NCBI GenBank assembly: GCA_902774335.1
Contig: CACYHW010000009.1
Span: 1 to 64,000 of the forward strand
Length of the DNA stretch: 64,000 nt
DNA from: an uncultured Bacteroidales bacterium
GTDB lineage: Bacteria > Bacteroidota > Bacteroidia > Bacteroidales > Bacteroidaceae
Reading direction: 5' to 3'
Part shown: positions 33,922 to 51,016 of the stretch, in pieces
How positions within the stretch are numbered: the stretch's first letter is position 1
How the letters are laid out: each line of letters starts with the position of its first letter
Program-made: the position numbers and the translations under genes
The notes under the pieces: generated by a model
Databases searched by the model: none
What the model was told of the DNA's origin: nothing
Seen by the model: only the letters and a program-made list of their open reading frames with translations

Positions 33922-33941
33922 TGAATCAGTATGTTTTTCCT

Positions 33942-34523: not shown

Positions 34524-34973
34524 ATGAAAAAAAGATTGTATATCCTTTCTTGTGTTGCTATGCTTGCTGTTGGTCTTGCATTGTATGCTAATAACACATC
34601 TACAGTAAAGTCTCTCACCGAGTCTACCGTTGAAGCTCTATCCCAGGATGGAGATAATGGTAGTGGCAATAATGCAAACAATGTTGACTATGCCAATGAG
34701 AAGTTTGGTACTGCTCCATATGTCGTTTTTAATGATGCTGTATCGCATATTCTTATAATAGGTAATGCCGAAAATAAAACAAACGCTAAAGGAAAACCTA
34801 TTAATAATTGTAATTTCAAAGTTGGTGGTACTTGTAGAATGAACACTAATTCTACTTGTTCGTATATTGCTGAAATAAAAGATTTGATTTGTGATGTTTT
34901 ACGTGCAGCAGGTGGCTTAGCACAAGCATTGTCATCCAGTATAGCACAATATCTTATAAGTAAGTTTAAGTAA
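34524..34973 (+). CDS. NVEALA-type secreted peptide precursor, copy A
   Basis: The 149-residue product has a basic start (MKKR), a hydrophobic stretch to about residue 21, a likely signal peptidase site after LYA (22), and the segment STVEALSQD at 34-42. That segment resembles the NVEALA signature of a Bacteroidales family of small secreted proteins; here the motif is relaxed. The C-terminal half has four cysteines (96, 104, 112, 123), which could form disulfides, and an Ala/Ser-rich end. The family's function is unknown. It leads cassette A and is followed by a long hairpin before the next gene. Cysteine 10 sits in a lipobox-like ILSC but too close to the N-terminus for a normal lipoprotein. 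Confidence 0.7.
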   Translation: MKKRLYILSCVAMLAVGLALYANNTSTVKSLTESTVEALSQDGDNGSGNNANNVDYANEKFGTAPYVVFNDAVSHILIIGNAENKTNAKGKPINNCNFKVGGTCRMNTNSTCSYIAEIKDLICDVLRAAGGLAQALSSSIAQYLISKFK

Positions 34974-34982
34974 TTTGAAAGG

Positions 34983-35019
34983 ACTGACTATCGTGAGACT
35001 TATATTCACGATAGTCAGT
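34983..35019 (+). other. Intercistronic 14-bp hairpin after peptide A
   Basis: ACTGACTATCGTGA (34983-34996) and TCACGATAGTCAGT (35006-35019) pair perfectly around a 9-nt loop. The following bases are only weakly T-rich (TAATCTTTAATG). It may act as a partial terminator or protect the 3' end of the peptide mRNA. Cassette B has an equivalent hairpin at the same place. Confidence 0.8.
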
Positions 35020-35047
35020 TAATCTTTAATGATTTAGTTACAGTAAT

Positions 35048-36217
35048 ATGAATATAGTTCAGTTTTGTTTAAAGCCCCATAGTTTTATTACTATATCTTT
35101 TTTATCAGTAATGCTATTGTGGGGATGTAATCAACACAAATATAGTGTTGTAGACTTGGATGTAGTGGAGGAACTAGAATTGAATCTGCAAACGTCAGAA
35201 GTAGATATTATACCTATAAAATGTTCTGTTCCAATGGATGGAATATATAGAATGGTTGAAAATGGAGAATACACATTTCTTCTTGGTAATCAAGGCGATG
35301 TAATATATTGTATGCAAGGAGATACGGTCGTTTCTATTCTTAATGCAAAAGGACGTGGATATGGAGAATACATTCAAATAAATGATTTTGTTTATGATGA
35401 AAGATCTTCTTTATTATATGTTAATGCTGATAAGAAAATAATGAAGTACAATGTCCCATCGATGTCTTTTGTAGGTTCTTTTGATATAGATTTCTCTTGT
35501 GATGGTATGATTGTTCTCAACAATGAAGAATTATTAGTCAATTGCAGTTTTTGGGAAGATAAAGAATACAAAGAAGTGTATAGAGGACTATGTGTGGTTT
35601 CTACAATTAATGGAGAAATAGTGAAACGTTGTTATGAATTAGGTGGATATGGAGATTTTTGTTTCTTAACTCGTGATATGTCAAGAATCAATGGTGATAT
35701 AGTTGTAGTTGTTAACGATTTGTATAGCAGCAAAATAATAAAATTTGATGAAAAGACTTATTCATTTGAAACGATAGAATCGTTTGTTGTAACTCCAAAA
35801 TGGAGAGTTCCAAAGAAAATTGCAAAAAACTTAGAAAAACGTCATCTTACGCTAAAAAACGATTATTACGACCAAAAAGTCTACTGTAAAGGTTTCCATT
35901 ACCCTTCATTGTTTGATACAAAGACTATTTGTTGGTGTTTTCCAGAGGAATATGAAATATCAAGGGAAGTAGCAATTATCAAATGTGGTGATAGCTTAGT
36001 ATGTAGGTCGTATAAGATACCAGGAACTAACATAGATGTTAATCCTTATTATGTAAAGGGTAACACATTTGTCGAAATAGTTGAAGATGAAGCTGAGTCA
36101 ATCATTGATGATTGGGATGAGTTGTCTCCGTTAGGAAGGGAGATTTATGAGACTATGAAAGCACAACCTTTCAATAATCCGGTTTTATTGTCATTTACTG
36201 TTGATAAAGGTTTGTAA
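35048..36217 (+). CDS. 6-bladed beta-propeller lipoprotein, copy A
   Basis: The 389-residue protein has a signal peptide with lipobox LWGC (C27), so it is a predicted lipoprotein. The rest is beta-rich with repeated strand pairs typical of six-bladed propellers. One segment, NAKGRGYGEYIQINDFVYDE near residue 98, fits the G-x-G-x-x-E-[YF] pattern of the Bacteroidales propeller family that neighbours NVEALA genes. Function is unknown; propellers commonly bind ligands or partner proteins. It follows peptide A after the hairpin and is 4 bp upstream of the CxxC protein start. The gene is AT-rich compared with genes left of 33 kb. Confidence 0.75.
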   Translation: MNIVQFCLKPHSFITISFLSVMLLWGCNQHKYSVVDLDVVEELELNLQTSEVDIIPIKCSVPMDGIYRMVENGEYTFLLGNQGDVIYCMQGDTVVSILNAKGRGYGEYIQINDFVYDERSSLLYVNADKKIMKYNVPSMSFVGSFDIDFSCDGMIVLNNEELLVNCSFWEDKEYKEVYRGLCVVSTINGEIVKRCYELGGYGDFCFLTRDMSRINGDIVVVVNDLYSSKIIKFDEKTYSFETIESFVVTPKWRVPKKIAKNLEKRHLTLKNDYYDQKVYCKGFHYPSLFDTKTICWCFPEEYEISREVAIIKCGDSLVCRSYKIPGTNIDVNPYYVKGNTFVEIVEDEAESIIDDWDELSPLGREIYETMKAQPFNNPVLLSFTVDKGL

Positions 36218-36221
36218 GATT

Positions 36222-36776
36222 ATGTTTATACTTAGAGTTTTTGCAGGTTTCTTGAGCGTGGTACTTTACGTTCTATTTGGTTTTTTAATATTTACGGTAT
36301 CAACTCTTCTATTGGTGCAAAAAGATATTAGTGAAAGACAGCAAAAGCCGGCGATGGTAACAACTGCTGATAGTTGTTCTTTTGATGCATCGATTCAGAT
36401 TATGGATTTATGTCAGGGTGGAGGAGTAATGGTATATCTGGAATCGCAGTCGTGTGCATCGTGCACATCGAAAGCATTAAAACCTATTACGGACTTTCTA
36501 ATTGATTCAATTGGTTTGGAAAAGCCTGTTTTGGTGTATCACATGAAATCGGACTCGGATCTGACAAAGATTGATGAATATCATGAGTGGTTTGGTGACA
36601 GTTATAATGTAATTGTGTCATCTGATGATTCCATTAGGATTAAGAATGATTGGATGATGTTTTCCACTGGAGTTTGGGGTTTTGTGACAGATTCTCTAAA
36701 CAGAGTTGAATATGGAGGATTCCTTTATGCCGATCAGTTTTTTGAGACCTGTAAGAACCATTTTGACCCAATATGA
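36222..36776 (+). CDS. Membrane-anchored thioredoxin-like protein with CASC motif, copy A
   Basis: I chose the ATG at 36222, four bases after the upstream stop, giving 184 residues, the same length as the cassette B counterpart; an overlapping start at 36201 is possible. Residues about 3-33 form one transmembrane anchor. The soluble part has a CxxC motif, C78-A-S-C81, after a predicted strand (GVMVYLESQSCASC), as in thioredoxin-like folds, and a later strand ending VWGFVTDSLNRVEYGG. It is probably a periplasmic thiol-disulfide protein that could handle cysteines of the peptide, but this is inference. It overlaps the next gene by 4 bp (ATGA). Confidence 0.65.
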   Translation: MFILRVFAGFLSVVLYVLFGFLIFTVSTLLLVQKDISERQQKPAMVTTADSCSFDASIQIMDLCQGGGVMVYLESQSCASCTSKALKPITDFLIDSIGLEKPVLVYHMKSDSDLTKIDEYHEWFGDSYNVIVSSDDSIRIKNDWMMFSTGVWGFVTDSLNRVEYGGFLYADQFFETCKNHFDPI

Positions 36777-38368
36777 GGATTCTGAACATTGTTGACGGGC
36801 TGTTTGTCCTCTTGAGTGTGGCATTGATATATGCTGCATACGGTTCCTTTCAAACAGGTAGCAGCGTAATCGTGGTTCTGATAGAGCCGTTTTTAATGGC
36901 TTACTGTCTGTTCAGGATCATGTTTGGACTGAGCCATAAATGGAGTTCATTCGTTTTTATATGGGTTATCGCTACTCTATGTGTATATCAGGAGTATTTG
37001 GGTTATAGTCAGTTGTTGACTAATTTGGGTAAGAACAACGGCCAGGATATTTGTGTGGGATCGTTTTCAAATTCGGGTCCGTATGGTGGTTTCCTGGCCG
37101 TTTGTTCAACCCTGTTGGTGGCAGCATATTTCAAAGAACCTCGCAAATGGATCAAAATAACGTATATCGTAATTGCGGGACTTGCTCTTATTCTGCTGCC
37201 ATGTACTTTAAGCCGAGCCTCAATCCTGTCATTCGGAATAGCTATGCTAGTCCTGGGATTAAGGAACAAAAGGGTGGTGGCTTTGTTGCGAAGATACTGG
37301 ACCTATATAACTATAGCTGCGGTAATGATATGCGTGGGAGCGTACATTTACAAGAAACCTTCGGCCGATGGCCGGCTGCTGATGGCAAGAGTGGGCCTGA
37401 GAATGATCAAGGAGAATGGTTGGCATGGGGTAGGATTGGGCAATTACTCGGGAGCTTACGGCAGGGCTCAGGCCGGATTGTTTGAGGAATACCTGTATGA
37501 CGAAGCAGGGAACTTTAAAACAGATAATATTCCGGAGAGAGTCCGCATGGTAGCCGATTGTCCAACTTATGCCTTCAACGAGTATCTCAGGATGGGGATC
37601 GAAGCCGGTCCGGTGGCAATGATTGTTTTTATTCTACTTATTGTTGCAGCTTTGGTCCAGCTATACAAAAGTGACAGTTACTGGTTATATCCTCTGATAT
37701 GCATGTCGGTTTTCGCTTTCTTCTCTTATCCGCTTGAGATAGATATGCTCGTATTTATGTCAGTACTATTTCTGGCATCGGCCAATAATGAGTGTGACAA
37801 AAGACTTGGAACATCGGCGTTCTTTGTGTTTTTATGCGTGTTTTTGGGATCACAGTATATTGATAAATATGGTCAGAATGGGCTTGACAGGGGATTTAAT
37901 CCTTATTCTGTCAGTATGAAAAGTTTGTGCTCCAGTAGGGCCAGGCGTATCATTGTTAATGAACAGAAATGGATGGATCAAACAACATATGATGCTTCCA
38001 CATTGTTTATTTACGGAAGGTTTTTAAATCAAAACGGCAATTATGAACTGAGTGATTCGGTTCTTATGGTTGGGGCCGAACACAGCAATGATCCTATGTT
38101 CTGGAATGTGATGGGAAACAACAGCCTTGCTTTGGGCAAGTACCGTGAAGCCGAGCTGCGATACAAATATGCATTCAGTATGGTGCCAAACCGTCTTTAC
38201 CCGCTCTGCCTGTTGGCCAAACTGTATTATGCCCAGGGAGATACTCTGCATTTTATGGAAATGGCAGGCATTATCAGATCTTTCAAGGCAAAGGTGGAGT
38301 CTCAAAACACATCGCTTTTACGTGATGAAATCGCTGTTTTGGAATCAGAAATAACCTATTCACGATAA
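36773..38368 (+). CDS. O-antigen ligase-like membrane protein with TPR tail, copy A
   Basis: The 531-residue protein has about ten membrane segments up to residue 365, then a soluble tail with a TPR-like pair (FWNVMGNNSLALGKYREAE, 441-459). The membrane part resembles the Wzy/WaaL family, with SFSNSGPYGGFLAVCST (near 97), KKPSADGRLL (near 197) and GWHGVGLGNYSGAYG (near 217). The ligase His usually found in AHNxYL is replaced: the segment reads ADCPTYAFNEYL. In the family, these proteins join lipid-linked glycans to an acceptor or polymerise them. Its paralogue at 46608-48185 shares all of these segments. The acceptor here could be a peptide or surface polymer; unproven. Confidence 0.72.
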   Translation: MRILNIVDGLFVLLSVALIYAAYGSFQTGSSVIVVLIEPFLMAYCLFRIMFGLSHKWSSFVFIWVIATLCVYQEYLGYSQLLTNLGKNNGQDICVGSFSNSGPYGGFLAVCSTLLVAAYFKEPRKWIKITYIVIAGLALILLPCTLSRASILSFGIAMLVLGLRNKRVVALLRRYWTYITIAAVMICVGAYIYKKPSADGRLLMARVGLRMIKENGWHGVGLGNYSGAYGRAQAGLFEEYLYDEAGNFKTDNIPERVRMVADCPTYAFNEYLRMGIEAGPVAMIVFILLIVAALVQLYKSDSYWLYPLICMSVFAFFSYPLEIDMLVFMSVLFLASANNECDKRLGTSAFFVFLCVFLGSQYIDKYGQNGLDRGFNPYSVSMKSLCSSRARRIIVNEQKWMDQTTYDASTLFIYGRFLNQNGNYELSDSVLMVGAEHSNDPMFWNVMGNNSLALGKYREAELRYKYAFSMVPNRLYPLCLLAKLYYAQGDTLHFMEMAGIIRSFKAKVESQNTSLLRDEIAVLESEITYSR

Positions 38369-38400
38369 TTTGTCTTTTTAATGATTTCATTGTACTTTTG
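38369..38400 (+). promoter_or_regulatory. Putative promoter of the TPR/HTH regulator
   Basis: TTTG (38369-38372) and TACTTTTG (38393-38400) are separated by 20 bp, a full match to the Bacteroidetes promoter. The regulator ATG lies 62 bp downstream, so it has its own promoter within the island. Confidence 0.65.
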
Positions 38401-38462
38401 ATGCTGGTTCATTAATGGGAATCCGGTTTTCCGGATGCTGTTAATATAGTTGCTCATAGTCT

Positions 38463-40160
38463 ATGAATAGTGATAGGTTTGTAAAGATATGGGCTGCAGT
38501 TGTGGCTGTCGCATTGTTTGCAGTTACAGGATGTAGCCGAATTAATGACGGAAAAATAAGGAGCGGCAGCGCAATTGACGCTCTTATGAATAATGTCGAA
38601 TCTATAATTAACAGTGATGCCGAATTAGCGGACTCACTGATGAATCTGATAGATTCCAATAGTTTAAGAGGAAAGGAACGCAAGGCCCGTTACGCGCTTT
38701 TATATTCAGAGGCACAGTTTAAGAACTACCAGCCGTTTACCAGCGATTCCCTTATCCTGACGGCTGCCCGCTATTACTCCATAAGCAATAATCTGGATAA
38801 CAGATTCCTTTCCTATTACTATCTTGGTTGCGCCTATATGGAGCTCAAGCAATTTACGGATGCGGCTGTAGCTCTTGCGCAGGCCGAGATGCTGGTCAAT
38901 GTAATTGACAATGATTATTGGAAAGGATTGTTGTATACACAATTGGGAGACCTGTTCAATGAATCATACGATTATCATCGTGCCGAAGAGTATTTCCGAA
39001 AGAGTGCCGATTATTTTGAAAAAGCGGGAAAGGAAGCCCATCATATATATGCATTGTATGATATAGCAAGATGCAAAAATGATTTACATGACTATCATAA
39101 AGGGGATTCATTGTTGAAAGTTATAGAAAAGTGGGCTATTCAGAATGACGATACTGATTTGTGTTCAAGCATTGTTTACGACAGGCTGTTCTGTTCCTTG
39201 TTTCTTAAGGATTCCGACTTTTCATCCGATGTTTTTAAAGATAATATCACCAAGGCACAATATAACTATGAACGTGTAAACTATCTTGAGTTGATGGCTT
39301 TGTACCATAACTCGATAAAAGATTTTGCTCAATCGGACTCGTATCTGCAGGAAGCATGGAATTGTAAGCTTTCTGCAAGAGATTCAATTTATCTCAGTTA
39401 TGTCAGTTTCTTACTTGCAGACAGCCGAGGACAGGCTGACAAATCATTGGAGTATTACCGCAATTATATTTCTCTGCAGAATGAAAGCTTAAGGAAGGTT
39501 TTAAACCAACCTATTTTGGGCGTCCAGAAAGAGCATTACAGGGTCTTTGCCGAGAATGAACAGCTCAAAAACAGGCATGCGCGTACTACACTTGTTCTCT
39601 GTGTGCTGATTTTCATGCTTATTATAGTGATAGTGATGGTTACCTATCATTATAAAAAGAAACATATGCAGGAACAACTTTATGATTCACTTGCGGTTGT
39701 AGAGGAGCTTTCGGCCATAAACCACATAAATACAGACAAGATAGAGCATCTCAAGAATGAGGTCCGCCGCCAGTTCCGCGAGCGTCATGATATGTCAAAC
39801 CGCCTCTATTCAATGTATTTTGACTCGGAGAGTCAGGATAAGATCACAAAACAGCAACTTAAGGTTACCATAAACGGACTTATTAAGGATTATACGGCTC
39901 CGGAGAATGTCAAGAAACTTGACGGACTCATTGACGAGTCTTACGATGGCATAATGACCCGCCTGTCCGCTCAGGATTTCGGACTTACTGAAAAGGAACT
40001 TCAGTTGCTTCGATTCTCGTTTGCCGGTCTGTCATCAAAATCAGTAAGTGTTATCATTAATGAGACTCCGCAAAACATCTATCAGTTAAAATCGCGTCTT
40101 TTGAAGAAAGTCAAGCGCAATTCGGAGGAATTGTGGGAAACATTAAATAACATTTGGTAG
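38463..40160 (+). CDS. Membrane-spanning TPR regulator with C-terminal LuxR-like HTH
   Basis: The 565-residue protein starts with a signal segment with lipobox-like VTGC (C24). Residues about 40-350 are helical TPR-like repeats (YYYLGCAYMELKQFTDAAVA). One transmembrane segment lies near 375-397 (LVLCVLIFMLIIVIVMVTY). A coiled coil follows (400-450). The C-terminus (about 505-560, FGLTEKELQLLRFSFAGLSS) resembles the LuxR-type DNA-binding helix-turn-helix. The layout implies a periplasmic sensing half and a cytoplasmic DNA-binding half in one chain. Such proteins are common beside DUF3244 genes. Likely it senses an envelope signal and controls island genes; targets are unknown. Confidence 0.78.
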   Translation: MNSDRFVKIWAAVVAVALFAVTGCSRINDGKIRSGSAIDALMNNVESIINSDAELADSLMNLIDSNSLRGKERKARYALLYSEAQFKNYQPFTSDSLILTAARYYSISNNLDNRFLSYYYLGCAYMELKQFTDAAVALAQAEMLVNVIDNDYWKGLLYTQLGDLFNESYDYHRAEEYFRKSADYFEKAGKEAHHIYALYDIARCKNDLHDYHKGDSLLKVIEKWAIQNDDTDLCSSIVYDRLFCSLFLKDSDFSSDVFKDNITKAQYNYERVNYLELMALYHNSIKDFAQSDSYLQEAWNCKLSARDSIYLSYVSFLLADSRGQADKSLEYYRNYISLQNESLRKVLNQPILGVQKEHYRVFAENEQLKNRHARTTLVLCVLIFMLIIVIVMVTYHYKKKHMQEQLYDSLAVVEELSAINHINTDKIEHLKNEVRRQFRERHDMSNRLYSMYFDSESQDKITKQQLKVTINGLIKDYTAPENVKKLDGLIDESYDGIMTRLSAQDFGLTEKELQLLRFSFAGLSSKSVSVIINETPQNIYQLKSRLLKKVKRNSEELWETLNNIW

Positions 40161-40195
40161 ATTATCATACAAAATAGGGTGTAAAAACCATCTTT

Positions 40196-40230
40196 TTGGG
40201 GCGTGTCAGATAAAAAGTAAAACGCCCCAA
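40196..40230 (+). other. Hairpin after the regulator gene
   Basis: TTGGGGCGT (40196-40204) and ACGCCCCAA (40222-40230) pair perfectly with a 17-nt loop. It is 36 bp after the regulator stop. No T-run follows, so it is more likely an RNA-stabilising hairpin than a terminator. Confidence 0.6.
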
Positions 40231-40247
40231 TACAAATAACTGAATAT

Positions 40248-40295
40248 TAGGCAATTACAAAGTCGCTTGTCAGACTTATAATTGCCTATTTTTTT
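40248..40295 (+). terminator. Intrinsic terminator between regulator and DUF3244 gene
   Basis: TAGGCAATTA (40248-40257) pairs with TAATTGCCTA (40279-40288), with an inner AAGTC/GACTT stem, followed by seven T residues (40289-40295). The T tract is also part of the -33 element of the next promoter, so one unit ends and the next begins on shared bases. Confidence 0.85.
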
Positions 40296-40324
40296 GGCTG
40301 TAAGTCTGGGAGGTCCTATCTTTG
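40293..40324 (+). promoter_or_regulatory. Putative promoter of the DUF3244 gene
   Basis: TTTG (40293-40296) and TATCTTTG (40317-40324) are separated by 20 bp, an excellent match to the Bacteroidetes promoter. The start ATG at 40351 gives a short leader of about 20 nt. Confidence 0.7.
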
Positions 40325-40350
40325 CACTGAACCTAATCACTTAAATGTTT

Positions 40351-40746
40351 ATGAAAAAGAACCTGAAGTTATTCCTGTTGATGTTGCTGGCATTGATGAC
40401 CAGCTTACCTACTGTAGTCTTGGCAGATGATGATGAACCCGAACCGGATGATATTCCAATCGTACCGTATCCCCGTATCAAGATTCCTCGCCCGCGTGCA
40501 CGCGCGTTAAATGTTGAGGTATATCCTGAGTGCTCGTACTACAATGGTGTAGTAACAATATCGGCTGAGCCTGACATTACTGGTATCAGCGCCGAGGTGG
40601 AGGACTTGGAAGGCGGACAGGTATGGTCAGATTCCAGTGTTGGCAACATTCTTGTTTTAGAGGTGTCTACCGATCCGGGTTCATATAGCCTGTTACTGAC
40701 ACTTTCAAACGGAAAAAGCTACTACGGAGAATACTCCATACAATAA
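40351..40746 (+). CDS. DUF3244-type secreted small protein
   Basis: The 131-residue product has a clear signal peptide (MKKNLKLFLLMLLALMTSL, with VLA before DDDEPE). An acidic and then Pro/Arg-rich segment follows (PRIKIPRPRARALN). The C-terminal 75 residues are beta-rich (YYNGVVTISAEPDITGISAE, YYGEYSIQ) and match the Ig-like pattern of DUF3244 proteins, which Bacteroidales encode next to TPR/HTH regulators. It is probably secreted and of unknown function. The ATG at 40351 is preferred over one two codons upstream. It has its own promoter and precedes the transglutaminase-like genes. Confidence 0.75.
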   Translation: MKKNLKLFLLMLLALMTSLPTVVLADDDEPEPDDIPIVPYPRIKIPRPRARALNVEVYPECSYYNGVVTISAEPDITGISAEVEDLEGGQVWSDSSVGNILVLEVSTDPGSYSLLLTLSNGKSYYGEYSIQ

Positions 40747-40796
40747 AAAATCAGTTCAGTTATTTATTTAGGTTAATATTAATTTGAAGTGTGGAG

Positions 40797-42146
40797 ATGA
40801 AAAATCTTCATTGGACCTCCTTGTTTGCAGCAACAGTCGTGATGATGGGTTGCGTACGAGGCTCACACATTGATGAGATTCTTGATTCAGCCGGCTCCAA
40901 CAGAATAGAGTTGGAGACCGTGCTGAACCATTATCGTACGGTTGATCCGAATCCGGATAAACTCCGTGCGGCCGAGTTTCTGATAGAGAACATGCCTGCT
41001 CATTACTCATATGCCGGCAATGATATCTACCGATACTATGATAGTGCAGCAAAGATCTTGGCCGACAAGTCATTAACCCCGGAACAGCATCGCGACAGCC
41101 TTCTTGTAATAACTGATAGGGAATTCCGGGAACTGCCTAACCATACCGTGCCTGATGCACAGATAATAAAGGCGGATTTTCTGATAGCGAACATTGACAA
41201 GTCTTATGCCCAGTGGGATACCTGTGCGTGGGCCAGTCAGATAACTTTTGACGAGTATCTGGAGTGGCTTCTTCCGTACAAGGTAATGGAATTACAGGAA
41301 CTTGATGCCTGGCGTGATACATTACTTGCACATTTTGGCAGTGGCCTTGAGCACCCCATCAAAAACGATGTGGAGTATAATACGACAATTGCTACGGCCG
41401 ACATGCTCCGCAATGATGCATATCATGGCCTGAACCGCTATGGTCTCTATACCCGTGCCGGTTTGCCATTGATAAATGCACACCTTTTTGTAGCTCAGAC
41501 ATTTGGCGATATTCCAGATTATGCCAGAACTGCGGTACTCGTTTTCCGCAGCGCAGGTGTACCGGCCGTGCTTGACGAGACACCGGTAGGCAGTCGAGGA
41601 ACCGCAGCAACACATTGGTACGTTATCTATTCGGACCGTGGTGAACAGCTGACATCCGAGTGGGATCTTGCTACACAGATCGGAGGCAGTTTCTTCCCTT
41701 ATGATCGTGGTCCCAAGGTGTACAGAAATACTTATGCCATCAATCAGGAACGTTGGGAGTACAGAAAGAATGCCAAGTATCAGTATCCGTTTGAGTTAGG
41801 CAAGAAAGATGTCACTTCGCAGTATTTCTTAACCAGCAACCTGTCCATTCCCATAGAAAAGGGCGTAAAGAAACAGCTTAAAGACAAATATGTCTACATA
41901 GCATCGGCAGTGCGTAATGATGAGAATCCATGGAAGATAGTGGATTTTGGAGTCATCAGACACGGCAAGGCCGAATTCCATGACATGGGCCGTGAAGTAC
42001 TCTACCAGGTTATGGGCTATAACGGTAAAGAACTAATTCCAATAATTGAACCATTTATCCTGCACAAGGACTCCCGTATTGAGTACGTGAGCGCAGACAC
42101 TCTCAGTTCGGGCAGTCTTGATAAATGGAAAAACAACTCCTTATGA
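40797..42146 (+). CDS. Transglutaminase-like lipoprotein, catalytic Cys absent (copy 1)
   Basis: The ATG at 40797 gives 449 residues with lipobox MMGC (C19); a GTG two codons earlier is less likely. The protein shares its whole architecture with copy 2 (LPYKV, DAWRDTL, VFRS, DRG landmarks). In copy 2 the active-site segment is TYGSCYDY; here it is TFGDIPDY, so the catalytic cysteine is Ile (I239). The histidine segment is THWYV instead of HSWYT, so the conserved His is Thr with His in the next position. It is therefore probably not a thiol enzyme and may bind a substrate or partner. Its stop overlaps copy 2 (ATGA). Confidence 0.78.
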   Translation: MKNLHWTSLFAATVVMMGCVRGSHIDEILDSAGSNRIELETVLNHYRTVDPNPDKLRAAEFLIENMPAHYSYAGNDIYRYYDSAAKILADKSLTPEQHRDSLLVITDREFRELPNHTVPDAQIIKADFLIANIDKSYAQWDTCAWASQITFDEYLEWLLPYKVMELQELDAWRDTLLAHFGSGLEHPIKNDVEYNTTIATADMLRNDAYHGLNRYGLYTRAGLPLINAHLFVAQTFGDIPDYARTAVLVFRSAGVPAVLDETPVGSRGTAATHWYVIYSDRGEQLTSEWDLATQIGGSFFPYDRGPKVYRNTYAINQERWEYRKNAKYQYPFELGKKDVTSQYFLTSNLSIPIEKGVKKQLKDKYVYIASAVRNDENPWKIVDFGVIRHGKAEFHDMGREVLYQVMGYNGKELIPIIEPFILHKDSRIEYVSADTLSSGSLDKWKNNSL

Positions 42147-44140
42147 TAAAATTAAAATTCAGACCAAAACTCTTCTTGTTTGCATCTTTATCACTGCTTG
42201 TTTTCGGAGGCTGTAGTAAAGATGACATTTATCTTCACTACGCCCTGAAAGCAGCAGGTGATAATAAAGGGGAACTCAAAGCTGTTCTGCGCCACTATCG
42301 TACCGAGGACAAGGATCCCCTTAAACTGAAAGCAGCCAAATATCTTATTGCCAATATGCCGGCTCACTACTCGTATCGTGACACGGCCGCAATAAACAAG
42401 TATTACAGCAAGGCTTTGGAAATCCTTGGCACAGGTCCCAGTCCCGACTGGCAGCGCGATACATTGCGCCGAATTGGCGATACTCAGTTTGCCGGAATAA
42501 CCAGAAGTGTTGTATCGGATGTAGAGGTGATGACCGCCGATTATCTGATTTACAGCATAGACCACGCATTCAACCAGTGGCGCACCAGGCCTTGGGCCAA
42601 ACATCTTTCATATGAGGAGTTCCGTGACTGGCTGTTGCCCTATAAAGTGATTGATCGTCAGAGTCTTGATGCATGGCGAGATACTCTTTCAGATCATTAC
42701 AGCGACAGTCTAAGAACTATACCTATTGATGACTTTGAGAGAAACACTATATATGGTGCTATTGAGATAGTACGCAATGAATTGCACTCAAAATTATCAG
42801 ACATAGGACATCGTGTCATATGGGAGGATCGCGGCAGTATACCTATGCGTAGTGCAGCCACGTGGGTAAGGATGACTTATGGTAGTTGTTATGATTATGT
42901 AGTTATGGGAACTGCTGTTTTCCGCAGTCTTGGATTTCCTGCTGTAGTCGATAACGTACCCACGTGGGGACGTAATAGCGATGGCCATAGTTGGTATACT
43001 TTTCTTGATGACCGCGGGCGTGAACAGGTAACCATTAATTCTCTTATTATGGGGGCGGGCTTTCAGTTCTATCCATATGAGCGCATTCCTAAGGTTTTTC
43101 GAAATACTTATGAAATAGATCATGATGTTGTAAAATATCGCAATACTGCCAAATATGTACATCCATTTGAAGTATGCCAAAAGGATGTTACAAATAAATA
43201 CAATGTTGTATCGGACATACAAGTTGAAACTGATAAGGTTCTTACAAAAAATCTTAAGGATAAGAAATACGTTTACATAGCTATGGCTGTAAATTCCAAT
43301 GGTCCAGATTGGAGATTGTTGGATTTTGGAGTTCTTAAAAATGGTAAGGCTTGCTTTAAGAAAATGGGCCGAAATATGCTATATATTGCATTGGGTTATA
43401 ATGGTATTAGTTTTGTTCCAATAAGTCATCCTTTTATCTTGTATAAGGATGGGCATATCGAGTATATTGATGGCAGTGATAATCCCGTAAAAGTGAGTAT
43501 GGATTTACGTCGCAAATACTACGAATCATATAATGTAGTAGATATGCGTCGTCGTATTTTGGGTGGAAAGGTTCAATGTTCAGACTATCCTGACTTCAGG
43601 GATGCGATTACTCTTTACACAATTGAGCGTACTGATATTCCTGATAAAATACAACTGAATGCAGGTCGTCCTTATCGTTACTGGCGTTATTTAACGCCCG
43701 ATGGTTCGTGGGGCAGCATATCTGAGATATCATTCTATGACAGGGATGGAAACAGATTGAACCATAAAGGAATTGCTAATCCCGAGGCTGGTCAGGATGC
43801 CATAGAACGTGCATATGATGGTAATCTGCTCTCAAACTTTGAAATCAACCAGCCTAACGGCAACTGGGTTGGAATGGATATGGGGAAGCCTACTGATGTA
43901 GGTTACGTAAGCATTTCTCCCCGTAGTGATGATAATGATGTTTGCCCTGGCAATGAATACGAGCTGTTGTATTTTAACGGAAAGACATGGCACTCATTGG
44001 GCTTCAAAAAAGCAGAGGGCAATTCGTTACATTATAATGGTATTCCTCTCAACACTCTACTCTGGATGCGCAATTATACCCGTGGTCAAAATGAGCGTCC
44101 ATTCATTATTAGAGAGAGTGGAGATATTGAATGGTGGTAA
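42143..44140 (+). CDS. Transglutaminase-like lipoprotein with discoidin-like C-terminus (copy 2)
   Basis: I chose the ATG at 42143, which overlaps the copy 1 stop (ATGA) and gives 665 residues with lipobox FGGC (C24). The transglutaminase-like core keeps the catalytic Cys (C249, TYGSCYDY) and His (H282, GHSWYT). The C-terminal region (about 505-665; GSWGSISEISFYDRDGNRL, NWVGMDMGKPTDVGYVSISP) resembles a discoidin/F5-8 type C sugar- or protein-binding domain. Such proteins may act as peptidases or acyl transferases on proteins or peptides. The first ~560 bp have base use like copy 1, then the gene turns AT-rich until about 43600, suggesting mosaic origin. Confidence 0.78.
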   Translation: MIKLKFRPKLFLFASLSLLVFGGCSKDDIYLHYALKAAGDNKGELKAVLRHYRTEDKDPLKLKAAKYLIANMPAHYSYRDTAAINKYYSKALEILGTGPSPDWQRDTLRRIGDTQFAGITRSVVSDVEVMTADYLIYSIDHAFNQWRTRPWAKHLSYEEFRDWLLPYKVIDRQSLDAWRDTLSDHYSDSLRTIPIDDFERNTIYGAIEIVRNELHSKLSDIGHRVIWEDRGSIPMRSAATWVRMTYGSCYDYVVMGTAVFRSLGFPAVVDNVPTWGRNSDGHSWYTFLDDRGREQVTINSLIMGAGFQFYPYERIPKVFRNTYEIDHDVVKYRNTAKYVHPFEVCQKDVTNKYNVVSDIQVETDKVLTKNLKDKKYVYIAMAVNSNGPDWRLLDFGVLKNGKACFKKMGRNMLYIALGYNGISFVPISHPFILYKDGHIEYIDGSDNPVKVSMDLRRKYYESYNVVDMRRRILGGKVQCSDYPDFRDAITLYTIERTDIPDKIQLNAGRPYRYWRYLTPDGSWGSISEISFYDRDGNRLNHKGIANPEAGQDAIERAYDGNLLSNFEINQPNGNWVGMDMGKPTDVGYVSISPRSDDNDVCPGNEYELLYFNGKTWHSLGFKKAEGNSLHYNGIPLNTLLWMRNYTRGQNERPFIIRESGDIEWW

Positions 44141-44189
44141 GGCACAAAGTGTTCATACACATCGAGATTATTATTGGATTTGGATAAGT

Positions 44190-44242
44190 GAAGGGGTATA
44201 ATGGTCAAAACCCTTGCAAAGTCGCACCATTTATACCCCTTC
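44190..44242 (+). terminator. Hairpin between copy 2 and peptide B
   Basis: GAAGGGGTATAATGGT (44190-44205) pairs with ACCATTTATACCCCTTC (44226-44242) with one extra base, around a 20-nt loop. No T-run follows, so it may be a weak terminator or an RNA-protecting structure. Confidence 0.65.
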
Positions 44243-44327
44243 CATCCATTTCTTAAGTGTAACCCTTAAAAATGAATAATGCAAAGGTAAAAAAATGAAT
44301 TAATTTGATTGTTATTTCCCATATGCG

Positions 44328-44345
44328 GATATGGGTTTTCTGATA
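44328..44345 (+). other. Leader hairpin upstream of peptide B
   Basis: CCCATAT (44328-44334), loop GCGG, ATATGGG (44339-44345), followed by TTTTC. It is 55 bp before the peptide ATG at 44400. Its position suggests a leader structure, but chance is possible. Confidence 0.55.
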
Positions 44346-44399
44346 AATAGAAATGAGAATAATCCGCAACTTTATTTAACCGAACTAACTAAGAAAAAA

Positions 44400-44822
44400 A
44401 TGAAGAGAACAAAATTATTATTAGGGTGTTTAATGATAGTTTCTGCTATTGCTGTCTGGGCTAGTCAGAAAATGAACAATAATCTTATTTCAGAGAATGT
44501 TGAAGCTCTGACTCAAGATGATTGGTTTGATACATGGAGAAGGCAGAATATGCCGCAATTAATAGACATACAACATCCTAGTGGTTACTTTGAAGCGAGC
44601 TATATAATTAAGGCTGATAATAATGCTCAGTGGGGTGATGATGGCGGATATGTTTATATTGATTCATCTACCTATTATACAAATTCTAGCCATACTACAC
44701 ATGCAAGTGTATGTTCTGGAGATTGGTATCATGGTAACCCTCAAACAACCTGTAGAGTTATAACAAGCTGGGCAATGGTTGAACATATTCTTGGCGAGAA
44801 TATATACCTCTATTTTGTCTAA
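44400..44822 (+). CDS. NVEALA-type secreted peptide precursor, copy B
   Basis: The 140-residue product starts at 44400 (MKRTK); a longer in-frame start within the leader hairpin is unlikely. A hydrophobic segment follows with a likely signal peptidase site after AVWA (21). ENVEALTQDD (32-41) contains the signature motif. The mature part is rich in Tyr, Trp, Asn and Thr and has two cysteines (105, 118) that could form a disulfide. Its sequence after the motif differs from copy A, so only the leader-motif region is conserved between the two. It leads cassette B and is followed by a 16-bp hairpin. Function is unknown. Confidence 0.75.
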   Translation: MKRTKLLLGCLMIVSAIAVWASQKMNNNLISENVEALTQDDWFDTWRRQNMPQLIDIQHPSGYFEASYIIKADNNAQWGDDGGYVYIDSSTYYTNSSHTTHASVCSGDWYHGNPQTTCRVITSWAMVEHILGENIYLYFV

Positions 44823-44861
44823 ACGCTTAGCGTTAGATGTCTATTTAAAGATATTATTCAT

Positions 44862-44914
44862 TAGGGTAGAGATGATGAAAAACAGATAGATGATTTTACA
44901 TCATCTTTACCCTA
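44862..44914 (+). other. Intercistronic 16-bp hairpin after peptide B
   Basis: TAGGGTAGAGATGATG (44862-44877) pairs with CATCATCTTTACCCTA (44899-44914) with one mismatch, around a 21-nt loop. It occupies the same place as the hairpin after peptide A (34983-35019), with unrelated sequence. A small AACGC/GCGTT stem also overlaps the peptide stop (44822-44834). Confidence 0.8.
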
Positions 44915-44948
44915 TATTAATCAATTAGCAAACAATCATTTAAAAGAT

Positions 44949-46028
44949 ATGTCTGTTTCTCGTTATTATTTTAAGATTCTAATGATAGTGTTATTGGGTT
45001 TTACTGCGAGTTGTAAACCTGTTTATTATGAAAACGATATTAAGGAAATAGATTTTCTTGATACTCCCAGATATGCTCTAATTCCGGAACAACTCGATTC
45101 ATGTCCTATTGGTATTGATGATATTATATCTTTTGGAGATTATTTGTTTGCTACGGTAAAAGATCCTTCCAGTCAGCTTAGAATCTATGATGTTAATAAT
45201 GATTGTTTGATTGCATCTATAGGTTCAAGAGGAAGAGCGAATAATGAGTTCATATCTCCACAATTTGTTGGAGATCAGGTTTATATTAGGGACGATGAGT
45301 TGTATTTACCTGTGATTGATAATATGACCATATTGAAGGAGATAAATGTAACGGAGTCTATAAAGCAGTCTGAAGCTGTTGTGCCTTTCCGTACTTTTTG
45401 CATTGGTCCGGCAGAAGGTCGTATATCGTTGTTAGATAATGACATAACAAAAACTTTTGTTTTTGTAAAACCGCTACTTCTCAATGAAAAAGCTACTCAA
45501 CCTCTTTATCTCATTAAGGAAGAGGGGTTAGATGCTGTTAGAATACCTGCGTTTAAGGATGTTATAGAAGGAGATAATCGAGTTAATGTATTAGCACAAT
45601 ATTTGGGTGGATTAAAAAAACATCCTCAAAGAAATGTAATCGTTCAACCTATGCAGAATATGGATTATATTCTATTTTTTGATGTAGACAGTATGCGATA
45701 TTATGCAGTCCATCAGCTGGGATCTAGGACTTTTGAAGATAAAGTGATTGAAAATATTAATTATAGTCCTTCTAGTTATTGTTTTGGTGATGGTGCTGTT
45801 TCGAAAGATTTTTTCCTTGTTAATTATTGTGCTAGAGTAATAGCAAATCCGGATGATGAAGTAAAGACTGAGATTTTGATGTTTGATTGGGAGGGCAACT
45901 TTATTAAGGGTTTTACCGCAAATGTTGCGATGCATAGAATTACTTATAATGAAAGTAATCAAACATTATACGGTTGTGATCTATCAAATGAGAAATTATA
46001 TAAAGTTAGCCTAAAGGATTATTTATGA
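44949..46028 (+). CDS. Beta-propeller-like lipoprotein (BF3164-type), copy B
   Basis: The 359-residue protein has a signal peptide with lipobox TASC (C22). The mature part is beta-rich with the segments LRIYDVNNDCLIASIGSRGR near residue 76 and LMFDWEGNFIKGFTANVAMH, which match propeller blades of BF3164/TolB-like Bacteroidales lipoproteins. It differs in sequence from the cassette A protein but has the same place, fold type and lipid anchor. Function is unknown. It follows peptide B after the hairpin, and overlaps the CxxC protein gene by 4 bp (ATGA). Strongly AT-rich. Confidence 0.75.
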   Translation: MSVSRYYFKILMIVLLGFTASCKPVYYENDIKEIDFLDTPRYALIPEQLDSCPIGIDDIISFGDYLFATVKDPSSQLRIYDVNNDCLIASIGSRGRANNEFISPQFVGDQVYIRDDELYLPVIDNMTILKEINVTESIKQSEAVVPFRTFCIGPAEGRISLLDNDITKTFVFVKPLLLNEKATQPLYLIKEEGLDAVRIPAFKDVIEGDNRVNVLAQYLGGLKKHPQRNVIVQPMQNMDYILFFDVDSMRYYAVHQLGSRTFEDKVIENINYSPSSYCFGDGAVSKDFFLVNYCARVIANPDDEVKTEILMFDWEGNFIKGFTANVAMHRITYNESNQTLYGCDLSNEKLYKVSLKDYL

Positions 46029-46579
46029 TTAAATATAGAAATCATATTATTTCTGTCTTATTATTGTTATTAACAGCTTGTGGGCACTCTCCAAGATCTA
46101 TTATGAACAGTTTAATGTATCGTAAAATAGATTATTTAAGTGGAGGAACAGTACTGACAGATTCTGTTGAAAGATATTCTCCGGTAAAGGCTCAAATAAA
46201 AATTGTTTCATATGTTGATTCCCTTGTTTGTACCAAATGTCTTGCTAATTATCTAAATGCAGCATCGGAGTATGTGGATTCATTTAATACTGACAGTGTC
46301 ATTTATTTATGTGTTCTACAGAAGCGTTCAATAGAAGAAACTCAGAATATGATTAATCAATTGAATATTAAGAACGTTGTTGTAATATATGATGCTTCTG
46401 ATCATTATTTGAAAAAAAATAAAATAGATAAGATTCCTTCTCTATACACATCTTTCTTGCTTAATTCCAATGATGAGATAGTTTCTATTGGTGATCCATT
46501 GAGAAACCTTGATATTCGTTTACTTTTTGACAAAAGAATTCGTGGCCTGATTGATAATGGAGGGGAAAATATACCCTAA
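46025..46579 (+). CDS. Thioredoxin-like lipoprotein with CTKC motif, copy B
   Basis: The 184-residue protein has a signal peptide with lipobox LTAC (C19). A CxxC motif, C69-T-K-C72, follows a predicted strand (QIKIVSYVDSLVC). Later segments IKNVVVIYDASDH and KIDKIPSLYTSFLLNSNDE fit the thioredoxin beta-strand and cis-Pro loop. It is the positional equivalent of the cassette A CASC protein and has the same length, but is anchored by a lipid rather than by a transmembrane helix. It may act on disulfides or thiols of secreted peptides; this is inference. Confidence 0.68.
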   Translation: MIKYRNHIISVLLLLLTACGHSPRSIMNSLMYRKIDYLSGGTVLTDSVERYSPVKAQIKIVSYVDSLVCTKCLANYLNAASEYVDSFNTDSVIYLCVLQKRSIEETQNMINQLNIKNVVVIYDASDHYLKKNKIDKIPSLYTSFLLNSNDEIVSIGDPLRNLDIRLLFDKRIRGLIDNGGENIP

Positions 46580-46607
46580 ACTAATATCAAATAATAGACA
46601 CAATTAT

Positions 46608-48185
46608 ATGTATGATCAATCGCGAATAAATAAAATGACAAAAGTGTACAAGTCCATACTTTTGTATTCTTTTATCTTTTTCATAGCCTTAACCTGTTTA
46701 AAAGAATGTTTTGTAGGAGTCAAACAACTTTTTTGGGGCTTTGTTTACAATAATCCATTATACGTTTGTGGATCGTTCGATGGTTCCGGTTCTTATGGAG
46801 GTTATCTTGCCGTATGTGTTAGTTTGCTTGTTGCCTATGCAATCCATTACAGATCCTTGAACAGTAGAACAATGCTGTCTACAATTCTATATAGAATGGT
46901 TATTATTGTTATCTGTGCAGCATTGATCATGATATCATCAACATTATGCCGTAGTGCAATTCTTGCTTTATGTTGTGGATTGTCATTCCTTGTTATTCAA
47001 ACAGATCATCTAAAGTCAAAAGCGAAATACATAATTAAAAAGAATTGGACTTCTATTCTTCTTGGCTGTTGCATAATTATATCAGGTGTTTATCTCATAA
47101 AAAAACCTTCAGCAGATGGACGCTTTTTTATGAATAAGATAAACATTTACTCGATATGCACAAATGGGTGGAGGGGAACTGGAATAGGTTCTTTTGGAGG
47201 AACCTATGGAAATGCTCAAGCTATATATTTCAAAAAGCAAATAGAAAAGAATGGTAGCTCTGATTTGGATTGGAAATCAATTGGTGAGCATGATAGAATG
47301 TCAGCGGATTGTCCAAACGATTCATTTAACGATTATCTATTCATAGGTGTTGAACGTGGTCCTTTAGTCATGTTCATATTGCTTTTTATCGTTATTCTTG
47401 CAATTGTTATTTCTTTCAGAAGAAAAACTCTTTGGGGGTGCGGACTAATCACATTTGCTGTTTTTGCGACGTTTTATTATCCTCTTCGTTTACAGCAATT
47501 TCAGTTGTTGTTTATAGCCTTGACACTTCTATGCGTAATGGATCTTAAACTGTGTGATTGTGATCAACTTGATTATACGATTGATCAGCAAACATGTCAG
47601 CCTAAGCGATTGATTAATATATTAACTGTAATAATTGTCATAGGAGGCCTATGCATAGTAATTAAGCCAAATAATAGTCAAGTGGAGAAGCCTTTACGAT
47701 TATGGGAAAAGGCAAAGCCTTGGTATAATAGCGAATACTATGATAATTATGTGAAGGAATGCGATACTCTGATGACCTTTTTTAAAGATAATCCTCAGTT
47801 CCTTTTTGAATATGGACATTCTTTGAATAAAATAGGATTGTATGAAAAGAGTGATTCAGTTCTAATGATTGGAACAAGAATCAGTAGTGACCCGATGTTT
47901 TGGAATGTCATGGGAAACAACAGCCTGGCTCAAGGTAAGTACCGTGAAGCTGAGGGACGTTACAAACATGCTTTTTATATGGTTCCCAACAGGCTATATC
48001 CGCTTGTGTTGTTGACAAAACTGTACTATGAGGAGGGCGATACAGCTCGCTTTCTGGAAATGACGGATGTCGTGGAAAACTTTGTTCCTAAGGTGGAATC
48101 AATAAGAACAGAAAAACTACGGGCTGAAATAAGGGAGTTAAAAAACAGTTACTTAACTGAAATAGAGGAAAATAATGAAGACTGA
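46608..48185 (+). CDS. O-antigen ligase-like membrane protein with TPR tail, copy B
   Basis: I chose the first ATG after the upstream stop (46608), giving 525 residues; starts at 46551 or 46635 are possible. The protein has about ten membrane segments and a C-terminal TPR-like tail (FWNVMGNNSLAQGKYREAE). It matches the cassette A paralogue in SFDGSGSYGGYLAVCVS, KKPSADGRFFM and GWRGTGIGSFGGTYG. The usual ligase His is missing (SADCPNDSFNDYL), as in copy A. The tail is far more similar to copy A, at both DNA and protein level, than the membrane part. It overlaps the signal peptidase gene by 11 bp. Confidence 0.72.
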   Translation: MYDQSRINKMTKVYKSILLYSFIFFIALTCLKECFVGVKQLFWGFVYNNPLYVCGSFDGSGSYGGYLAVCVSLLVAYAIHYRSLNSRTMLSTILYRMVIIVICAALIMISSTLCRSAILALCCGLSFLVIQTDHLKSKAKYIIKKNWTSILLGCCIIISGVYLIKKPSADGRFFMNKINIYSICTNGWRGTGIGSFGGTYGNAQAIYFKKQIEKNGSSDLDWKSIGEHDRMSADCPNDSFNDYLFIGVERGPLVMFILLFIVILAIVISFRRKTLWGCGLITFAVFATFYYPLRLQQFQLLFIALTLLCVMDLKLCDCDQLDYTIDQQTCQPKRLINILTVIIVIGGLCIVIKPNNSQVEKPLRLWEKAKPWYNSEYYDNYVKECDTLMTFFKDNPQFLFEYGHSLNKIGLYEKSDSVLMIGTRISSDPMFWNVMGNNSLAQGKYREAEGRYKHAFYMVPNRLYPLVLLTKLYYEEGDTARFLEMTDVVENFVPKVESIRTEKLRAEIRELKNSYLTEIEENNED

Positions 48186-49011
48186 AGAAGATTCTTTTTG
48201 GGACAGATTGGTTAATAGAATCTGGAAGATAATGATGTGCCTGCTGGTTGTGATTGCTTTGCATTATGGCAGACGTATTTTTATTGCCGACAGGTTCAAA
48301 ATTCCTTCAGAATCTATGGCGCCTACACTCGTACCAGGAGATAATGTATGGGTGGACAAATTGTTATTCGGTCCCAGAATATACACCTCATTCAATTTTG
48401 AAGATCATGCACCTTTAAAGTGCTTCCGTTTGCCCGGACTTAGAAAAATTAGACCTGGTGATGTAATCTGTTTTAATTTTCCTCTGGGATATGGACAATG
48501 GACTGTTATTGAGTTCAAGATTAATTTTGTTTATTGCAAACGTGTGGTTGGCGTTCCTGGCGATACAATTGGCGTAAAAGAAGGCATAGTATGGAACAAT
48601 AACTATAAGGGAACTATTGGTGTACTTGAAAACCAAATGAAGATTCATGACACACCGGACAGCATTCTGTGGCGTACTACGTCAATGGCAACTATGCCCT
48701 TTACAAGACCCATGTGGACAATCAAGAACTTTGGTCCCATGTATGTTCCTGAAAAAGGTGTAACTATTGAACTTGATTCTATTGGGCGTGCCATTTATGG
48801 ACCTGTGATTGAGTTTGAAACTGGCTTATGGCCACCTGAAGATATGACGTGTCATACTTTCAAAAATAATTACTATTTCGCGTTTGGAGACAACAGTACC
48901 AGCTCACAGGATTCCCGTTACTGGGGATTCATACCTGAAGATTTCATAATAGGTGTTGTAGGTGGAAAAAAGACGAAGAACAATCCGAACCAACAGGTTG
49001 TTGGTAATTAA
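48175..49011 (+). CDS. Signal peptidase I
   Basis: The 278-residue S26 protease removes signal peptides of secreted proteins. After one membrane helix (about 17-38) the catalytic serine is S47 in PSESMAPTL and the general base lysine is K122 in YCKRVVGVPGD. Box E is seen as FGDNSTSSQDSRYWGFIPED near residue 239. All landmarks are intact. An insert between the boxes is typical of Bacteroidetes forms. Placement inside the peptide island, overlapping the ligase-like gene, suggests a dedicated peptidase for island peptides; a housekeeping copy presumably lies elsewhere. It is unclear whether the DUF1573 gene 16 bp downstream is co-transcribed, but it is likely. Confidence 0.9.
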   Translation: MKTEEDSFWDRLVNRIWKIMMCLLVVIALHYGRRIFIADRFKIPSESMAPTLVPGDNVWVDKLLFGPRIYTSFNFEDHAPLKCFRLPGLRKIRPGDVICFNFPLGYGQWTVIEFKINFVYCKRVVGVPGDTIGVKEGIVWNNNYKGTIGVLENQMKIHDTPDSILWRTTSMATMPFTRPMWTIKNFGPMYVPEKGVTIELDSIGRAIYGPVIEFETGLWPPEDMTCHTFKNNYYFAFGDNSTSSQDSRYWGFIPEDFIIGVVGGKKTKNNPNQQVVGN

Positions 49012-49027: not shown

Positions 49028-49420
49028 ATGAAAGAAAGATCTAAACCTGAGAAGTTGTTTAAAAAGTTACTTGCGGCAATAGTATGCCTGACCGTTTTGT
49101 CAGGATGCTATTATGATGCGGGATTCGTGTCGGTGCGAAAGGATAGTGTGGATGTAGGGAACGCGGTTGTGGGCGATTCGGTCCATACTGCTTTCAAGTT
49201 CTGGAACAGGTCGGATGATACTGTCAGGATGACATTCATTCCGGAGTGTGACTGCACTACGGTCAGTGCCGATGTAATGGAACTGGAGCCTGGCCGGCGC
49301 GGCTTGCTTAAGGTAAGCGTCGGCATTGATGCTCCGGGTGAGTTCCATAAGTATGTTTTTGTCCAGGCTAAGGGTGATGACGGTTTTCTCACTGTTTCGG
49401 TCCATGGTCATGCAGAGTGA
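49028..49420 (+). CDS. DUF1573-domain lipoprotein
   Basis: The 130-residue protein has a signal peptide with lipobox LSGC (C27) and a single DUF1573 Ig-like domain, with DVGNAVVGDSVHTAFKFWNR and the CDCTTVSADVMELEPGRRG segment near residue 75. DUF1573 proteins are common in Bacteroidetes and of unknown function. It follows signal peptidase I by 16 bp and is the last gene on this side of the island, since a promoter-like element and the efflux operon follow. Base use is closer to the right-hand flank than to the AT-rich cassette. Confidence 0.82.
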   Translation: MKERSKPEKLFKKLLAAIVCLTVLSGCYYDAGFVSVRKDSVDVGNAVVGDSVHTAFKFWNRSDDTVRMTFIPECDCTTVSADVMELEPGRRGLLKVSVGIDAPGEFHKYVFVQAKGDDGFLTVSVHGHAE

Positions 49421-51014: not shown

Positions 51015-51016
51015 AT

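Follow-up and report, generated by a model that had tools for sequence, protein, structure and literature searches.

A Bacteroidales locus in which NVEALA-type peptides pair constant leaders with variable cysteine-rich cores and co-inherited propeller lipoproteins

In a number of Bacteroidales, small peptide genes of the NVEALA type join a leader that is similar within a genome to cysteine-rich cores that are unrelated to one another, and the propeller lipoprotein encoded beside such a peptide follows the core, rather than the leader, in its inheritance. The starting point is a 64,000-nucleotide stretch, referred to here as the window, which corresponds to positions 1-64,000 of contig CACYHW010000009.1 (assembly GCA_902774335.1) from an uncultured Bacteroidales bacterium of the Bacteroidaceae, whose genome is 87% complete. 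Within it are two cassettes, each made up of genes for an NVEALA-type peptide, a propeller lipoprotein, a CxxC protein and an O-antigen-ligase-like membrane protein of the WaaL fold with a TPR tail, and the unit extends past both cassettes to approximately 58.3 kb, taking in an S26 signal peptidase, a DUF1573 protein, TolC and HlyD proteins as well as two RND pumps. Our preferred interpretation, which is tentative and stops somewhat short of being the probable one, is that this unit and its relatives form a system for maturing and exporting peptides, in which cargoes are swapped and each has a cognate propeller.

The evidence for a constant leader and a variable core comes from 155 distinct peptides found by pattern search under 58 genome labels (57 after merging, two labels sharing a contig), with one label given to each named contig and identical peptide sequences counted once. 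The V of the motif lies at residue 36-40 in 132 of the 155, and the residue following E-A-L is Ala, Ser or Thr in 152. Information content stays high across the motif and at a Glu three residues beyond it, falling after that, the conservation of E-A-L being partly by construction because the search pattern fixes the A and nearly fixes the E and the L. The cores hold an even number of cysteines in 118 cases, an odd number in 35 and none in two (P 1e-11), and their net charge averages -1.86 (standard deviation 2.71). In genome G080, the leaders have a mean identity of 0.83 (median 0.95) and the cores a median of 0.23, as against 0.22 for shuffled cores. The break is also visible in the DNA of three of nine genomes, where identity is 80-95% in the leader and right after the NVEALA motif falls to about 30%, i.e. 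from 0.80/0.90 in the leader to 0.27 in the core for G080, from 0.81/0.84 to 0.33 for G554 and from 0.91/0.95 to 0.34 for G540. In these three genomes, the 100 bases before the start are alike as well, with DNA identities of 0.67-0.84.

The second pattern concerns the gene that follows. Directly after 122 of 154 peptide genes comes one for a propeller, and in an earlier peptide set a propeller came next in 58 of 70 cases compared with 54 of 845 control genes. Over the 122 pairs, which represent 52 labels, the similarity of cores between genomes correlates with that of the neighbouring propellers (r 0.61, P 3e-4; the highest r among 3000 within-genome permutations was 0.27), while leader similarity gives an r of only 0.12 (P 0.35). 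Where core similarity is at least 0.4, 41 of 42 directed tests find the best match of the other genome in the neighbouring propeller (12.1 expected), the sole miss ranking second of 8, and when the leaders are also unlike, the count is 19 of 19 (5.6 expected; 12 unordered pairs, 8 core families). At core similarities of 0.3-0.4, 0.2-0.3 and 0.15-0.2, the best-match counts are 18 of 25 (7.2 expected), 61 of 119 (32.3 expected) and 264 of 882 (246.6 expected), respectively. Because core and propeller are neighbours, the pairing is to be read as joint inheritance and not as binding. Within the window, the first pair behaves as a conserved pair: the three closest relatives of propeller 1 found in the genus, 44-46% identical, each have an upstream peptide whose core is like that of peptide 1 (z score 8.8-9.9), although one of these peptides has the same sequence as the L004 peptide, so the three do not count as independent of the L004/L005 group of loci. 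Eight more distant fetched relatives of propeller 1 (24-29% identical) lack an upstream peptide resembling peptide 1. As a side matter, the propeller superfamily extends beyond the cassette, and some propellers stand alone.

Pairing of this kind would also arise if the peptide were the small ligand or subunit of its propeller, the two acting as a periplasmic sensor or envelope factor, with the RND and S26 neighbours having another envelope role and not exporting the peptide. Stand-alone propellers fit that account, as does a TPR gene with a helix-turn-helix (HTH)-like region that lies within the block, and so does the scarcity of acidic surface-export-like signals among propellers, just 5 of 121 lipoboxes having at least two acids at positions +2 to +5 (the inner-membrane adaptor gives 4 of 16, and no known surface lipoprotein served as positive control). 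It leaves unexplained, however, both the within-genome similarity of leaders and the recurrence of S26 and pump genes, and we regard it as unlikely. The same scarcity makes a periplasmic partner likelier than a surface receptor, a role that was considered for the propeller and set aside; the test is a weak one, as the lipobox pattern catches 140 of 242 propellers and the acidic surface-export rule applied is a simplified one.

The components recur together across genomes. The ligase-like gene is present in 50 of 151 genomes of the family, and scanning named genomes yielded 20 loci from records of Bacteroidota, among them Alistipes, Odoribacter, Prevotellaceae and Salinivirgaceae. The ligase set consists of 40 regions fetched from the matches in the 151 genomes, these 20 loci and the window; L017 and L020, in which the open reading frame (ORF) caller missed the ligase, and the fragments L021, L023 and L061 were dropped from the locus count. 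Full flanks, meaning at least 4 kb upstream and at least 3.5 kb downstream, are available for 43 loci, two of them from the window, and the component profiles were grown on the same loci in which the components were counted. Among the 43, a propeller occurs in 31, a transglutaminase-like protein in 29, an NVEALA-type peptide in 28, S26 in 25, CxxC in 23, TolC in 23, HlyD in 23 and RND in 20, the last three being underestimates, since the fetched regions mostly stop about 5 kb beyond the ligase. The peptide is found in 27 of the 31 loci that contain a propeller versus 1 of the 12 that do not, CxxC in 23 of 31 versus 0 of 12, and S26 in 22 of 31 versus 3 of 12. NVEALA genes that exceed the cut-off of PF14055 number 94, in 19 of the 151 family genomes, and such genes occur in 20 of 38 genomes of one genus and in 18 of 393 genomes drawn from the order as a whole. 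Rare co-occurrence of the families, the outcome that a preliminary description of this DNA had named as telling against its proposed module, was not what emerged: where an NVEALA gene exceeds the cut-off, 17 of 19 genomes also have the ligase, versus 50 of all 151 (Fisher P 8e-8). Of the 94 genes, 27 lie within 10 kb of a ligase, compared with 0.93 expected at random (an expectation taken from the 17 genomes that have both genes, with rounded genome sizes), and among 44 NVEALA genes within 40 kb of a ligase, 43 are upstream and 43 are on the same strand; these counts exclude sub-cut-off NVEALA rows and further stretches of a ligase gene already counted. Roughly half of the NVEALA genes lie away from any ligase on the contigs examined, many of them in arrays. 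Arrays of peptide-propeller pairs were seen in L094, L097, L100 and others; the 80 array regions were chosen for their PF14055 matches, and a single genome holds up to 21 NVEALA matches at an expect value (E) of 0.01.

These co-occurrence and recurrence counts leave practically no room for the view that the genes are chance neighbours or non-coding ORFs, to which the scant sequence shared by the two window copies beyond the ligase might otherwise lend itself. Also opposed to it is the ratio of non-synonymous to synonymous substitution (dN/dS) of 0.31 for the whole peptide gene in one close pair, L004/L005, where the corresponding values are 0.13 for the leader, 0.39 for the core, 0.23 for the propeller, 0.15 for the ligase, and 0.17 for CxxC and S26. 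This ratio and the recurring gene order bear out the earlier proposal of an old, selected module.

The two window cassettes, whose assigned genes, like all those between 34.5 and 58.3 kb, lie on the plus strand and in several cases overlap, do have the order and positions that the preliminary description gave them. In the first, peptide 1 (34524..34973) has a hydrophobic leader with TVEALS at residues 35-40 and V at 36, a Cys-containing core and an amphipathic-looking C-terminus; it is followed by the six-bladed propeller lipoprotein 1 (35048..36217; DUF5128, PF17170 at 41.6 bits, cut-off 22.9), CxxC protein 1 (36222..36776) and ligase-like copy 1 (36773..38368; Wzy_C at 40.3 bits, cut-off 31.7). 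In the second, peptide 2 (44400..44822), with NVEALT in its leader and a Cys-containing core, precedes propeller lipoprotein 2 (44949..46028), which belongs to the profile superfamily of propeller 1 and has a sub-threshold TolB_like match (20.1 versus 29.2), CxxC protein 2 (46025..46579) and ligase-like copy 2 (46557..48185, start approximate; Wzy_C at 9.6 bits). Peptide 2 falls outside the set of 155 since the ORF caller began it 69 bases earlier. The ligase-like proteins are the clear paralogues they had been taken for (38% identity over 498 columns, E 1e-99). That the other parts share little sequence holds for pairwise comparison, in which the peptides are alike in the leader alone (33% over 42 residues, E 8e-4), the propellers almost fail to match by blastp (E 0.015) and the CxxC proteins give no blastp match. 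It does not hold at the profile level, where CxxC profiles grown from either copy converge on the same 30 proteins and propeller profiles gather 63 and 77 proteins, 57 of them common. As for the NVEALA label, leader position and motif agree with it, and neither peptide matches PF14055 at E≤1, nor does the genome give any match at E≤10, so the name as used for the window peptides rests on leader position and motif. Three peptides from ligase loci elsewhere score near the PF14055 cut-off of 27 bits but under it (17.7, 18.4 and 26.3), and an array peptide reaches 40.9 (four peptides scanned). The peptides also look secreted, as had been supposed. Beyond the two cassettes, the genome has no ligase match at E 0.001. 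A local duplication of the cassette is not supported, as the ligase tree gives the copies different nearest relatives and thus two lineages, copy 1 grouping with L004, L005 and L006 (support 100/100) and copy 2 with L009 and L022 (89/85, below the tree tool's mark for firm support). The preliminary description had overlooked the wider locus, the constant-leader and variable-core pattern, and the core-propeller pairing. As a further observation, the cores of peptide 1 and of its counterparts at L004:7357-7758, L005:2550-2951 and L006:7820-8224 have hydrophobic or amphipathic-looking ends, in contrast to the array cores, which are short and Cys-rich.

What the accompanying proteins might do is suggested by fold and by conserved residues. 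The CxxC proteins have no Pfam match; the two copies belong to one profile family, in which both cysteines of the motif are invariant (15 of 15 aligned), and the AlphaFold2 model, made for copy 2 only, predicts a thioredoxin fold (predicted local distance difference test, pLDDT, 88.3) whose best PDB match is the thiol-disulfide oxidoreductase 4nmu (E 3.7e-6), followed by ResA. For ligase-like protein 1, the model is of a WaaL fold plus TPR (pLDDT 82.8), and the best PDB match is WaaL 7tpg (E 2.8e-4; template-modelling score 0.52 by target length and 0.41 by query). The essential His residues of WaaL are listed in PMC10269572. At the catalytic-His position, the 61 distinct ligases have F in 53, Y in six and L in two, the residue alignment to 7tpg being weak; the next residue is Asn in 60 of 61, and two Arg columns are kept in all 61. 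The loss of this histidine makes ordinary glycan ligation less likely and weakens the preliminary description's suggestion that the peptide, once processed, is perhaps joined to a glycan or surface acceptor, for which the ligase-like enzyme would be responsible. The WaaL fold and the retained Arg columns speak for such attachment, but no glycosylation family was seen among the recurring families of the gene order (no search was aimed at glycosyltransferases), and the idea now appears quite improbable.

Downstream of the second cassette lie genes for signal peptidase I (S26; 48175..49011; PF10502 at 98.5 bits), a DUF1573 protein (49028..49420; PF07610 at 45.3 bits), a TolC-family outer-membrane factor (49484..50977; PF02321 at 116 bits), a HlyD-type periplasmic adaptor (50999..52099; PF13437 at 56 bits), and RND pumps 1 (52101..55136; ACR_tran at 508 bits) and 2 (55133..58345; ACR_tran at 341 bits), so that the TolC, HlyD and RND families of tripartite RND efflux stand in order. 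Among relatives of the S26 protein, the Ser is present in 44 of 45 (one gap) and the Lys in 45 of 45, giving the Ser-Lys dyad, and the same genome holds a second S26 match in a 493-residue frame on contig C18.

In the maturation and export system that we favour, the peptide would cross the inner membrane by Sec and remain tethered by its leader, to be cut at or near NVEALA by the S26 peptidase of the locus. The CxxC protein would form or proofread disulfides in the core, the propeller would bind its own core in the periplasm as an escort or protective partner, and the WaaL-fold/TPR protein may be an inner-membrane assembly or transfer component. Export would fall to the RND-TolC pump, TolC-HlyD-RND being the obvious exit, and with a constant leader a single machine could handle many cargoes. 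Leaders kept similar within a genome point to a shared leader reader, for which the S26 of the cassette is the best candidate, and most motif ends (Ala-Leu-Ala/Ser) fit the rule for signal-peptidase sites. The even Cys numbers together with a CxxC partner suggest disulfides. Joining all of these elements, a constant promoter-plus-leader might take up new cargoes through recombination at the NVEALA boundary, every cargo bringing its own propeller, an extra signal peptidase might cut, RND-TolC might export, and the WaaL-fold protein might act without ligase chemistry, a combined reading that is possible and, as a whole, somewhat doubtful.

Several findings weigh against the favoured interpretation. 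Over all cross-genome pairs, the rank correlation of core and propeller similarity is near zero (Spearman 0.08, and 0.04-0.06 in another run), since few pairs have related cores and the signal is confined to those, and joint inheritance of core and propeller could reflect linkage alone. A propeller is missing from 12 of the 43 full-flank ligase loci, 43 of 244 propellers come after another propeller, and 11 fetched relatives of propeller 2 (L177-L187, 32-44% identical) have no convincing peptide within about 1.5 kb upstream; in L186, one weak ORF fits the loose pattern (z score 3.8 to peptide 2), lying beyond another gene and not being leader-like. Two of the 19 genomes that carry NVEALA above the cut-off have no ligase. 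The sharp DNA boundary is clear in only three of nine genomes and is milder in the other six, where identity goes from 0.68/0.73 to 0.32 (G062), 0.51/0.58 to 0.29 (G109), 0.53/0.56 to 0.32 (G032), 0.48/0.55 to 0.34 (G541), 0.32/0.61 to 0.26 (G566) and 0.31/0.54 to 0.21 (G561). Among the 97 peptides with a sibling, just 47 have their nearest leader within their own genome, the figures being 8 for the nearest core and 12 for the nearest propeller. Variants such as NVELLA and NVEVIA occur, and the Ala-x-Ala rule is not strict. Lastly, the biological role is inferred, as is each proposed step of cleavage, oxidation, binding and export.

A different role for the same arrangement is polymorphic antagonism, in which the core would be a bacteriocin-like effector, the propeller its immunity protein, and the NVEALA boundary would play the part that VENN plays as the boundary in toxins of contact-dependent inhibition. 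A variable core, a co-inherited downstream partner and a sharp boundary in three genomes are what such a system would show; extra propellers without a peptide and the hydrophobic or amphipathic-looking ends of some cores also fit. On the other hand, the cores are acidic on average, a finding by which cationic antimicrobial peptides as a class were set aside, and a propeller of 300-460 residues is large as immunity for a core that is often 30-50 residues. According to a 2012 survey (PMC3482391), propeller domains were not found among immunity proteins, which counts in the same direction. PADLOC, a phage-defence library, gave no match for nine window proteins, a result that says little about bacteriocins and on which a phage-defence system was rejected. 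On this balance, antagonism seems rather unlikely, and if the propellers do prove to be immunity proteins, the system becomes a variant of the known polymorphic toxin-immunity kind.

To our knowledge, no system has been described for the NVEALA family, whose function is unknown, and searches of the open-licence literature with NVEALA, the DUF numbers and component combinations returned no system description (preprints and most subscription papers lie outside that scope). The window peptides have the leader motif at the same position as PF14055 but do not match it. CdiA-CT/CdiI and other polymorphic toxin-immunity systems likewise have a constant part, a boundary, a variable end and a co-inherited downstream partner; here there is instead a small peptide with a hydrophobic leader, a propeller as partner and other neighbours. 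With the WaaL O-antigen ligase and the PglL O-oligosaccharyltransferase, the ligase-like proteins share the fold and the two Arg columns, and they differ in the TPR tail and in the catalytic-His position, which is lost in all 61. The thioredoxin fold and CxxC are those of ResA/TlpA-type thiol-disulfide oxidoreductases, but the proteins here have no Pfam match and are tied to peptide cassettes, with a longer form following a second peptide class. Double-glycine leader bacteriocins combine a leader with a variable Cys-rich core and use C39 ABC exporters; the present leaders end in A-L-A/S/T and then a weak x-G-E, not Gly-Gly, and have TolC-HlyD-RND neighbours. In PEP-CTERM/exosortase loci, an O-antigen-ligase-like protein and a TPR protein are linked to a sorted substrate, whereas here the signal is N-terminal. 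We take the system to be new at the system level; its logic resembles polymorphic toxin-immunity, with a different substrate, partner and set of neighbours. A job for NVEALA genes can be predicted from the pattern, in that shared machinery would read the leader while each variable Cys core has a matching propeller. If true, it would provide gut bacteria with a route of small-peptide secretion, account for some of their propeller lipoproteins, and represent a case of a WaaL-fold protein turned to work other than glycan ligation.

The second class of NVEALA peptide is marked by a conserved CxGxGxxxC core, and a longer CxxC protein comes next in 11 of its 19 members versus 1 of 136 for the rest; in these 11 loci (L063, L096, L102, L115, L118, L134, L136, L137, L145, L146 and L150), the propeller is replaced by this longer form.

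Between the two cassettes of the window are four further genes. The first encodes a TPR protein and possible regulator (38463..40160; TPR_2 at 16.4 bits, sub-cut-off) whose C-terminal region looks LuxR-type HTH-like by eye, and the next a small secreted-looking protein (40345..40746) from a profile family of five proteins in the set, which has no Pfam match at 0.01. Relatives of the TPR/HTH-like gene adjoin small secreted-protein and transglutaminase-like genes in L009, L011, L014 and L022. There follow a short transglutaminase-like protein with its catalytic Cys replaced and no Pfam match of its own (40797..42146) and a long one that keeps the catalytic Cys and His (42125..44140; Transglut_core at 19.0 bits, under the cut-off of 23). 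Across the set, the long forms have Cys and His in 43 of 43, and in the 14 short forms the Cys column is I in 11 and C in three, with the His kept in four. The pair at 40797-44140 has the look of an active enzyme accompanied by an inactive partner.

A similar ligase-propeller gene pair may exist in Bacteroides thetaiotaomicron, as BT0662 (O-antigen ligase family) and BT0664 (six-bladed propeller). According to PMC10434189, both are lower under iron depletion (P 0.132 and 0.353, respectively); this response is not significant, and nothing beyond the similar gene pair was concluded from it. Directly upstream of the window block, on the minus strand, is a polysaccharide flippase-like gene (32419-33975).

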